A stretch of DNA of 64,000 bases from Ulva prolifera (Eukaryota; Chlorophyta; Ulvophyceae; Ulvales; Ulvaceae): positions 372,001 to 436,000 of the forward strand of contig CM041196.1 in the NCBI GenBank assembly GCA_023078555.1, written 5' to 3'. Of this stretch, positions 44,718 to 49,395 are shown in pieces (the first letter of the stretch is position 1; each line of letters opens with the position of its first letter). The translations under genes and the position numbers were made by a program. The notes below the pieces were generated by a model. It was not told the origin of the DNA. It did not search any database and saw nothing but the letters and a program-made list of their open reading frames with translations.

Positions 44718-47260
44718 ATGATAGGTGCAGACGAGCAACATTCCGGGCAGGTGCCGACAAATGCACCAGGTCTGGTGCACGACCAGGTCGCAGAGGATGA
44801 GATGCACCATGACGACAGCGACCATGAACAGGCGCCAGAAGGAGACATGGTAGACGATATGGATTTTCCTGACCCACTGTTGTGGGGTGAAGACCATGAC
44901 GAGACAGACGAGGACGAACAGGTTGAAGATGACATGGAAAGCGATGAGGACGACAACATGAATCAAGAGGACCTCGGTGTCCTAGATGCTGACTTACCCC
45001 TGCATCTTCAAGAGCATCAATTGCGTATGTGGAACTTGCGCGGCCAGCTGGGTGTACTGTGCGTTCCCCACCTCGCCTCTTTCTTCGCGGTATCTTCTGC
45101 CGCCGACTCCAGAAACCTTAGTCCATGAATTCCTGATTCCAACAGCAAAGCTTCGCAAGGTCTACCTTGGTGTTTGCGTGTAAGGACCCTGCTCCCATTG
45201 TCTCGGATGGTCCACTGAATGTGCATGCATGATCATCTCCTGGGCTCGGACCGTGATGGCCCGACCACACTAATGTGGTGCGTGATTTTGCAAATAATAC
45301 CCTGTTTAGAGGCTGGATCGTGGCATATATCCCCAACGCTGACCTAAACTAGCGGATATTAGTGGCCGTTGTGTCGTGATTACCATGTGAAACGGGACGA
45401 TGCCCGCTTGGTGTGACTTCGGCGAAGCACGTCTACAGATCACTGTCTACACTGTATCGAATGACGTGATAATGCTGTGTGCAGGCCAGAATTTGTGCGG
45501 ATGCTTCTGCCTGCCAACGGACGAGAGCCGCGCACCAATGAAGACCTAATTCGAGGTCTGAAGCGGCATTCGAACATCTCATGGTACGAGTCCAGACCTT
45601 ATCGTACAAAAAACTGATCATTTGTGCGTGGCAAAGTATCTGGACGGCGCGCTGCCCTCAATCGTAATTCTTTTCGTGGCCCTTGCTGATGTGGCGCCAA
45701 GGATTTATGGGTGACACAGAATAGGTGTCGGGCAGACTGAATTCGCGTCCCTCCACATAACATGGGCCCAATCGAATTTTTCAATAAGTACTGTAGTCTC
45801 TTCGGAGATTTGTCCTCGCTTTTCGCGACAGTCAGCGACACAGCGCCGTATGGCCAGGCTTCAGATTGGCCACAACGTATGCCTTACAAGGGAATTCTCG
45901 GGTCATGATGGCAAGGCAGCATGTAAAATTTCCAGGTGACCCAGCATGTCACGTCATTTCAGGGGCATGTCCGACAAGGGCTTCTGGGCTCCGCGATGAA
46001 TGTACATGTCGACGCGCGCGTGTTGCCGACAAAGGCAATCGTCGCTGGTTGCATGTCATACAACCGCGCGGAGCCTAAGTAGCCCATCATATTTCGTACA
46101 TGGCCCAATTATTTCATGGCGTAGTGCGCTGGACGTGCTACATGTCGCTGTGTCTCAACGAACTTTGGACGCTCATACGCATCATCGGTATACTCTGCGC
46201 TGCAATGCGCACTCAAGCTACACTGCCACAGCAAAATTGCGAACTGGAAATCACTCTCGCCACAGCCGGCATTCTTGACGTGGACATGTCCTCAGCGAGA
46301 CGTCAGCGGTGCTTTGCAGCAAGGCGGTGCTAAAAGCCTTCTCGGTTTGCTCCCGGGATATATTTATGCCAGATGACCAGAAAGACGAGGCATTCGATGA
46401 CCAGCCCGTGCGCCTAGACCGCGACTTCAACATATCTGCTCCTCGTGCGCTCCGTCAATCCACTCGTCACGTGCCTCATTTTGATTGGTTGCTCACACCG
46501 ACTTCATGAGGCATCACCTGCAGCCCTGCATGACAGCATTCACCAGTGACCCTTTCCGGCTCATTACGCCCGTGCGGTGTTCCCAAGGGCGACTGCAGAG
46601 TGCGCAGAACATCGCGCGAAGCAAGCATGCGAATCGTAATTCCAACTGCTGACGTGCGTGAGCGGCAATCTGCAGATATGCATGCATGCATGATCCAAGG
46701 GTTACAAGTTCAGGAGGGTGACCATGTCCTCGACATCGGCTCCGGCTGCGGCGTCACCACCGCCATTCTGGCCTATCTCGTGCGCTCCCTTCCCGACGTT
46801 GACTGATGCAGCGGTGACGCTCGCTGTCAGTGTTGCTGAGTCCAGTGCCGCTGCTGGGGTCGCTGTGAAAATGGCTGTTGTGTTTCAACAAATCCAAGAT
46901 TCAAAAAAATCACAGCGCAGCAGCACGGGCGTGTGCAGGCAGGCAAGTCCGGGCGGGTCGTGGGTGTGGAGCTACGAGAGCACGCCCTCACCCTCGCCCA
47001 CTCCGCGATGGCCGAGATGAAGAAAAAGAAAGAGTGTGCCCCTCCCCCCCCCAACCCCCATCTCGGGCGCATATCCTAGACACCTCCGCCACTGGGGCGC
47101 ACATGCCCTGCCTGACTGCGCACACAGTATCCCATCACTCAACGCCCCCCACGTGGGACGCGATGTGCCACTCGATTGGGCAGCGCACATGGATTCATGT
47201 TGAATTGTTTGGGATCGGGAACGTGTGGCAAGCTCGCGGCATGAAGATATCACCAGCACG

Positions 47261-47293
<33 letters not shown>

Positions 47294-49395
47294 TTCCTAC
47301 TAGAGATTCCCCAGTGCGTGATGGCGATGCACGGTGCAGGTACTGTGCGCGAGCGTGCGACCTCACCTTTGAGCAGGGCAACGCCTTCATCCTGCCGCAG
47401 CACGAGGGCTCATTTGACCGTGTGCACGTCGGCGGCCTGTGCGACGCCGCCAAGCTGCCCGCGCTGCTGCGCTTGCTGCGCCCCGGCACCGGCCGCCTCG
47501 TCGTGCCCTGCGGCTCGGAGCTCCTCAGCCTCTCCCGCACCGGCGCCAAGGTAAGCCCCCTACTTTGGCCGGCCTGCCGCCGTCGTGCTCGCGGAACAAT
47601 AGTGAATAATTATTGCAATTATAATTGATACTGGAAGGTCACATGCATGCACTCGCCCTTGTGGGGCTGATCATCAAGACGGTCGGTGGAGCATCACCAT
47701 GAGATGCACCCCACGCCCCCCTCGAGCCTGTGCCCCGCACGCAGCGCTGCACCAGTGCTTGCGAACGGCCTGAGTTCCCTGCAAGCCGCATGCTGGCGTG
47801 TTGTGCCGATGCGTGACGCGGGGCGGGCTGTGCTGCAGATCCGGCGGGAGGTGCTGGCGCACGTGCGCTTTGGCGAGCTCGAGATGCCGTCCGACGTCGA
47901 CATCGTGTTCGGCCACCTCGAGCACCACCGCGAGGCCCGCCTCACGCCCGCCGCCGAGGCCTCGCACTACGCACAGGACATGGCCGCGGCGCTCGCTGGC
48001 GGCGGCGGCGACGACTGCGGCGGCGGCCCGCCCGGCGCCCTTGAGATCGCCGGCGGCGGCGAGCGCCGTGGCCGCGCCGACGTGGCCGCCGCTGGCCTAT
48101 ACGACGACGCCGACGACCTCGAGGTCCACTCGACGTGCACCTGTGGCAGCTTTGGCATCGCGTCAAACCGTACGCATGCCGCTCATGCATGCGTACCCTG
48201 AATGTCGACGCGTGCACAGTTGTGCCGCGCAATGACGATGCGATGTGTCGCGGTGGATGCACGCATGGGTGGCGTTATGTGAGGTAGTATGTGCAGGGTC
48301 CCTATTCGGCCGCTCCCCAACCGCCCGCACCTCAATAGGCTCGTATGGGTCCCCCCCGACCCCCGGCATGGCCGCCGCAGCCGCCGCCACAGCCGCCGAC
48401 AGCCCCTCCGCGGAACCGCCGCACGCCGTGGACGCGCTCGTCGTGCCGCACATGCCGCCCTCGCTCGCCGCCCTCGGCCCCCCCGACTGCACCATCCGCG
48501 GCGCCGGCTTTGAGCTGCACGCACACTCCGCCGTGCTGCGGCAGCGGTGCCCCGTCACGCAGGCGCAGTTTGCGTCGGGCATGCGCGATGCGAACGCGCG
48601 CACCGTGACGCTGCCGCCGCACTTTGCCGAGGCGCCGATCCGCGCGGCGCTGCAGTACATGTACACCGACGAGGCGCCGCTCGACGAGGACACGGCACTG
48701 CCGACGCTCGCGGCGGCCGTCTACTTCAACATGGCGCACCTCGCCGCGCTGTGCTGCGGCTTCATCATCTCGCATCTCCGGTCGCAGGTGCGCTGCGCCC
48801 CCCCGGAGCCCGGGCTCCGTGTGTGCGAGTCAGCTGTTTGCATTGTACTTCTACTTCTCCGGAACACCTTCAGAGCTGGGGCTTGCGCGCGTGCTGCCGG
48901 AGCGTTCCGTGCGAGTGAGAATTGTTGACATGCGGCGTCTGTGTCTACAGCTCCGGTCCTGCTGTGCGGTGTTGGCGTCTGCCGTTGACGCCCGGACATG
49001 TGGCGAGTTGCACCTTCCCAACCTGTCATTCTGGGCCCCAGACCTTGGGCGCCGTGATCACTGCACACCTTTCTGACCACTGCGGGCCTGCATGAGGCGC
49101 TCACCAAGAGCGCGCGTGTGTGCAGGAGGTCGAAGACGCGGTCGAGGCGGCGGCGCAGCTGCATGTGTTTGCTTCGGAGCACGGCCTCGACGCCCTCGCG
49201 GCCTTCTGTGCGTCATTCCTCGCGGTGCACATCGCCGCCGCTCGCGCCGCGCCGTCGTACGCCGCGCTGGGCACGCGCCAGCTCGACGAGGTGCTCGCCG
49301 CGGTCGCTGCAGAGCGGGACGTCGTCGTCGCGCGCCTCGAGGCGCTCTCCACCGACCTCGCCGACCTCGGCCTCGACCTCGGCAAGCGCGCCTAG
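44718..49395 (+). CDS. Fusion protein: acidic N-terminus, PCMT methyltransferase domain, BTB domain
   Basis: Nine inferred exons: 44718-45058, 45485-45583, 46320-46444, 46676-46779, 46939-47033, 47340-47550, 47839-48169, 48297-48787, 49126-49395, giving 688 residues with all eight junctions in phase. Residues 1-100 are Asp/Glu-rich. About 130-365 form a protein-L-isoaspartate O-methyltransferase domain: NEDLIRGLKR, ISAPHMHA (about 185-192, created exactly by joining exons 3 and 4), the SAM motif VLDIGSGCG (about 206), GRVVGVE, FDRVHVGG and GRLVVPCG. A Gly/Asp-rich linker follows. About 498-600 form a BTB domain (FELHAHSAVLRQRCPV, ALQYMYTDEAPL, YFNMAHLAALC), then a helical BACK-like tail. BTB domains recruit Cullin-3, so a role as a substrate adaptor for damaged (isoaspartyl) proteins is inferred. 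Exons 1-4 are AT-richer than exons 5-9. The exon 1 link rests on phase and a GTGCGT donor only. Confidence 0.85.
47262..47293 (+). repeat. Poly-C tract of 32 bases
   Basis: An uninterrupted run of 32 C in intron 5 of the PCMT-BTB gene, about 46 bases before the exon 6 acceptor. It lies where a polypyrimidine tract would be, though longer and further upstream than usual. Confidence 0.95.

Follow-up and report, generated by a model that had tools for sequence, protein, structure and literature searches.

Does a green seaweed join, in a single gene, a PCMT methyltransferase domain to a BTB domain, and if so, what would such a protein do? The question was raised by positions 44718-49395 of a 64,000-nucleotide stretch of Ulva prolifera DNA (GCA_023078555.1, contig CM041196.1, forward-strand positions 372,001 to 436,000; hereafter the window), in which a sequence-only reading had proposed a PCMT-BTB fusion and, from it, a candidate Cullin-3 (CUL3) adaptor for isoaspartyl-damaged proteins. 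Cells deal with proteins carrying isomerised Asp or Asn residues by repair or by destruction, and what decides between the two is an open question. We found that the fusion is real and that it belongs to a broad family, while the identity of its client has to be reconsidered.

The gene consists of nine exons on the + strand, with GT-AG splice sites and consistent phases, forming one stop-free frame of 688 amino acids (aa) in which all the PCMT motifs named by the sequence-only reading are present. The junction between exons 1 and 2 (45058/45485) was set by comparison with a homologue from Ulva mutabilis, P0001; the Pfam run and the homologue searches were done with a 675-aa model that differs from the final one at this junction. 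Both domains that the earlier reading had seen by motif were recovered by Pfam: PF01135 (PCMT) at aa 118-323 of that model (E 6.3e-31, 108.2 bits for a cut-off of 20.3) and PF00651 (BTB) at aa 486-582 (E 8.5e-13, 48.9 bits for a cut-off of 20.5), corresponding to 45534..47871, introns included, and 48485..48775 on the + strand. No SOCS family and no MATH family appeared among the 18 Pfam families found up to E 1. P0001 is a 681-aa protein with both domains and 77% identity over 99% of the query part, and at the exon 7/8 junction, where PCMT passes to BTB, 40 of 42 residues are identical; P0001 being a gene model, this support for the junction comes from homologue models and not from RNA of Ulva prolifera. 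P0002, a less closely related protein of 477 aa whose model comes from a contig of 2,704 bases, carries this junction region as well. Because P0001 has both domains and shares the junction so closely, chance is an unlikely account of two domains in one frame.

The domains are distributed along the exons as follows. Exon 1 (44718..45058) encodes an acidic N-terminal region with no Pfam match, whose counterpart in P0001 is predicted to be disordered. The PCMT domain begins in exon 2 (45485..45583; TNEDLIRGLKR) and continues through exon 3 (46320..46444), as far as NISAP, and exon 4 (46676..46779), which holds HMHA and motif I for S-adenosylmethionine (AdoMet), VLDIGSGCG, and matches PF01135 by itself (E 4.7e-7). 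Exon 5 (46939..47033) contributes GRVVGVE and exon 6 (47340..47550) the part from DRVHVGG to the GRLVVP strand. The domain ends in exon 7 (47839..48169) with the family motif VRFGELEMPS, where canonical PIMT has V.(F/Y)VPL, and a linker follows that is completed in exon 8 (48297..48787), upstream of the BTB domain; the limits of these two exons hold as first drawn. Judging by the fold of P0001 and its match to SPOP up to residue 663, exon 9 (49126..49395) would encode BACK-like helices, followed by the stop codon. All nine are on the + strand. A run of about 29 C at 47265-47293, of a kind prone to sequencing error, lies in the intron separating exons 5 and 6 (intron 5), outside the coding exons.

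We then asked how widely the architecture occurs. Among the matches listed in two protein searches, at least 100 distinct proteins carry both Pfam domains, which rules out a lineage-specific oddity and does not agree with the proposal that this organism had wired the fusion for itself. With the seaweed protein as query, 13 of 14 matches have both PCMT and BTB, and related algae, where a search for orthologues had been suggested, did yield homologues, among them Ulva mutabilis, two Micractinium species, Chlorella vulgaris, Edaphochlamys debaryana and a Scenedesmus. A profile search led to the distant relatives P0016 and P0017 (an alignment used as query returned 9 rows, fewer than single sequences did). 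Among the best 120 of the 143 matches to P0016, 87 have both domains, 12 only BTB and 21 only PCMT. Ten of the 87 come from EukProt transcript assemblies. P0050 from Acanthamoeba castellanii, annotated as 'BTB/POZ domain containing protein', is also among the 87. The groups represented among the matches listed are green algae, Amoebozoa (Acanthamoeba, and Physarum through P0047, whose label 'Phypoly_transcript' we take to mean Physarum polycephalum) and further protists; each search scored only the approximately 8,000 candidates sharing most words with the query, and other groups may hold the family too. Two members have a second BTB region: Pfam finds two BTB stretches in P0017, and P0047 has by eye an additional, longer BTB-like stretch. 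In agreement with the earlier impression that such proteins are undescribed, no description of a PCMT-BTB protein turned up among open-licence PubMed Central papers, judged by titles and the starts of abstracts. What emerges looks more like a family of disposal adaptors that had escaped notice than like an isolated case.

What the methyltransferase half might recognise was approached through its acceptor site. By sequence and by fold comparison this half has the PIMT fold and belongs to PF01135. AdoMet motif I (LDIGSGCG in the seaweed) and the Ser of the SAPH motif (FNISAPHMHAC) are kept in each of the 89 rows in which both family motifs occur, a few of them fragments without BTB (P0015, P0107, P0112). 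The change S60A at this Ser leaves PCMT1 inactive (PMC11974815, a preprint, from the part consulted). The putative isoaspartate (isoAsp) site of human PIMT, as given in the part consulted of PMC8275801, comprises residues 57-59 and 212-216, and the family departs from canonical PIMT in both stretches. At the position of Thr57, just before the SAPH motif's Ile/Phe/Val/Met/Thr, Asn is found in 93 of 93 family rows showing the motif (the 89 above, P0049, P0053 and P0071, which have a chance VPL elsewhere, and P0065), and Thr in 18 of 19 canonical rows, P0116 being the exception; 31 rows that did not show both motifs were put apart in this count, but three of them (P0065, P0127 and P0129) have the SAPH part and are included in the totals of 93 and 19. 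In the second stretch, canonical (F/Y)VPL becomes (F/Y)(G/S/Q/T)(D/E)L, with RFGELEM in the seaweed and YVPLT in human PIMT (212-216).

The isoaspartate specificity claimed for this protein is thus not supported as stated, since published isoAsp-site residues are replaced throughout the family, and we do not take isoaspartate as the settled client. A CUL3 receptor that reads isoAsp as a degron through its PCMT pocket, as first proposed and here counted within the broader receptor reading, would be in keeping with the PIMT fold and with the preserved SAPHM core and catalytic Ser, but the Asn for Thr57, the loss of the VPL stretch and the relationship to PCMTD1, for which the parts consulted of PMC10798966 and PMC11514484 report no isoAsp methyltransferase activity, make it doubtful. 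The genome also holds a separate, canonical-looking PIMT in pieces on the - strand of G000:C2 at about 4112.7-4117.2 kb (L003, L004), with ETISAPHMHA and AIHVGAAAA; it is known from unspliced pieces, and its VPL end falls outside the comparison. These pieces rule out the idea that the PCMT-BTB gene is the only PIMT-like gene of this alga. PIMT relatives with other acceptors do exist: PIMTs associated with ribosomally synthesised and post-translationally modified peptides (RiPPs) methylate Asp to give aspartimide (PMC13001092, from the part consulted).

The C-terminal half resembles that of known CUL3 receptors. In predicted-fold comparison, the model of P0001 matched the BTB-BACK of SPOP up to residue 663, and SPOP is the best BTB match, by sequence and by fold, of the compact family member P0016. 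At the Cul3 contact aligned to M-E-E of SPOP, 82 of 104 family rows have φ-x-E, 19 have φ-x-D and 3 have neither, so that 101 of 104 show φ-x-E/D (109 rows were gathered besides SPOP, and those with fewer than 140 residues after the family motif were dropped). The seaweed protein has M-R-D, and eight other green-algal rows shown also have Asp. CUL3 receptors are described as generally marked by φ-X-E plus a 3-box (PMC13061254, in part), and the change E85A in KLHL3 abolished measurable Cul3 binding (PMC3616122), a paper in whose consulted part Glu to Asp is not among the changes. As for the cullin itself, an exon-wise search of the genome (88.9 Mb, 44 contigs) located cullins at three places, with 17 matches in all. 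In the C10 gene, the N-terminal exon, which encodes the part contacting BTB domains, has matches to 14 distinct chains, every one a Cullin-3, and the middle exon has Cullin-3 as best match (96 bits vs 73 for Cullin-1); an exon of the C1 gene best matches Cullin-4, and the C6 gene reads as CUL1. A CUL3 gene is therefore present in the same genome as the PCMT-BTB gene, together with at least four BTB places, this gene included.

Taken together, one chain holds a PCMT domain whose AdoMet motif is intact, then a long linker and what appears to be a SPOP-type BTB-BACK, an arrangement common to green algae and Amoebozoa. We favour, with some reserve, the reading that the seaweed gene encodes a CUL3 substrate receptor in which a specialised PCMT domain takes the place of SPOP's MATH domain. 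The BTB-BACK would bind the N-terminus of the genome-encoded CUL3, and the PCMT domain, in the MATH position, would grip a client in its methyl-acceptor pocket, leading to ubiquitination of that client. A protein with an altered Asp/Asn residue, or with a carboxylate-bearing end, is the probable client; plain isoaspartate would be one candidate only, because the pocket departs from that of canonical PIMT at residues of the isoAsp site. The adaptor role proposed for this locus hence stays plausible, given the SPOP-like fold, the CUL3 gene and the analogous PCMTD2-CUL5 pair, with an isoaspartyl client as one candidate among others. Our confidence is not higher because two observations count against a CUL3 receptor: the BTB domain of BCL6 also matches by sequence and fold, and the Pfam BACK model has no match in the seaweed protein.

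A different interpretation is that the protein is an active repair or modifying methyltransferase which uses its BTB-BACK for dimerisation, localisation or control of its own turnover and not to ubiquitinate clients. BTB domains such as that of BCL6, which matches too, are dimerisation modules. The universal conservation of AdoMet motif I and of the Ser inactivated by S60A in PCMT1, in the same 89 rows, would also suit an enzyme. Yet φ-x-E/D is found at the Cul3 contact throughout the family, SPOP is the best match of P0016 in sequence as well as in fold, and the genome has a separate canonical PIMT; we hold this interpretation to be rather unlikely. Least credible of all, to the point of being negligible, is that two adjacent genes were joined on paper only: an unused donor at 48170 would indeed let the exon 7 frame run into a stop at 48201, ending a PCMT gene there, the exon 8 frame is open upstream of its own acceptor as a separate BTB gene might be, and RNA of Ulva prolifera lay outside the comparison, but the junction conserved in Ulva mutabilis and P0002 and the single transcripts with both domains in other eukaryotes rule out such an artefact, and bear out a single gene.

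We sought to place the seaweed domain among PIMT relatives. A tree of 111 PCMT domains separates 92 family rows cleanly from 16 canonical rows (support 92/93 for the family without PCMTD1, 100/99 for the canonical rows without PCMTD1), and PCMTD1 stands between the two groups on a long branch. When the tree was reduced to 45 rows, leaving out the bacterial row P0019, PCMTD1 lay on the family side (100/99.9), inside an unresolved fork of the family. The seaweed PCMT groups with the family and not with canonical PIMTs in both trees. Forcing PCMTD1 together with the eukaryotic canonical rows was rejected (approximately unbiased test, p-AU 0.0225), as was reflected in a p-AU of 0.011 for PCMTD1 with PCMT1 and an insect row; PCMTD1 is however one sequence, on a branch of 2.1-2.4, and the tested groups were chosen after the larger tree, which had warned of long branches meeting, while the reduced tree flagged PCMTD1 as the only long row. 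The grouping of PCMTD1 with the PCMT-BTB family against canonical PIMT is a lead and no proof, and PCMTD1 would be either sister to the family or nested within it, the trees differing on this point. The trees fit better with one methyltransferase half in common and a swap of cullin modules than with the independent wiring first proposed, as far as one long-branch sequence can tell. Since prokaryotic rows fall on the canonical side, we infer that the family plus PCMTD1 form a eukaryotic side branch of PIMT; the seaweed methyltransferase half probably stems from this branch, which would also include the animal PCMTD1/2, equipped with a SOCS box for CUL5 and not with BTB-BACK.

These relationships allow a broader scenario, which we offer tentatively. 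A PIMT paralogue may have been fixed to CUL3 through BTB-BACK in an early eukaryote and kept in green algae, amoebae and other protists, while toward animals a SOCS box for CUL5 replaced BTB-BACK, giving PCMTD1/2; the pocket might read, or by methylation make, an Asp/Asn-derived mark other than plain isoaspartate. If so, modification and disposal would reside in one protein. The origin and natural clients of PCMTD1/2, the animal PCMT-cullin proteins, are little known, and a broad PCMT-BTB-BACK family would be a likely relative. It would mean that a second cullin has been wired to the PCMT fold, and would allow the target of the pocket to be tested in simple organisms. It also affects annotation: database names of the listed PCMT-BTB proteins include 'protein-L-isoaspartate O-methyltransferase' and 'PIMT1', and green-algal entries so named may be something other than the housekeeping repair enzyme.

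Other PIMT-like sequences were seen along the way. A possible PCMT-kinase fusion lies elsewhere in this genome, at G000:C5:518266-521757 (L001; 811-2118 and 250-783, - strand): an open frame of 435 aa has a PCMT-like domain (PF01135, E 2.9e-13), closes with what reads as a kinase N-lobe (LGEGGFGVVYKA) and adjoins a kinase exon (PF07714, E 2.3e-30). Weak PF01135 matches at G000:C8:684800-684949 (E 3.3e-5) and C8:3089868-3090095 (E 1.7e-4) are perhaps other methyltransferases. A fungal gene model, P0020 of Cladorrhinum sp. PSN332, combines a NEDD4/Bsd2 domain with a PCMT that has canonical motifs, and may be a merged model. In the window, ten other long frames showed no Pfam family at 1e-5.

Among known systems, the animal PCMTD1/PCMTD2 (PDB 9oma) come closest in joining a PCMT domain to a cullin-recruiting module, and are the best PDB sequence match of P0001 (57.9 bits) and P0016 (90 bits). 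In the parts consulted of PMC10798966, PMC11514484 and PMC13134007, PCMTD1 binds AdoMet and CUL5/ELOB/ELOC with isoAsp methyltransferase activity undetected, and in CD8 T cells PCMTD2 is reported to act as a substrate receptor of CUL5. They differ in using a SOCS box with CUL5/Elongin BC (PMC10798966, in part) where the seaweed family has BTB-BACK, and PCMTD1 has SAPCI where the family has SAPHM. Canonical PIMT/PCMT1 (EC 2.1.1.77) stands beyond the 100/99 branch, with Thr57 and (F/Y)VPL in place of the family's Asn and (F/Y)(G/S/Q/T)(D/E)L, and the family PCMT is fused to BTB-BACK. The CUL3 receptors SPOP and plant BPM share the BTB-BACK fold and the order recognition domain, linker, BTB, BACK, with MATH where the seaweed protein has PCMT. 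A PCMT enzyme also feeds an E3 ligase, the CUL4-based cereblon ligase, in the C-terminal cyclic imide pathway. There, C-terminal Asn is the substrate of PCMT1, whose product serves as a cereblon degron (PMC11974815); enzyme and receptor are separate in that pathway, whereas one chain with CUL3 is proposed here. The seaweed protein would work like PCMTD1/2 and SPOP, while by its architecture it is a member of neither.

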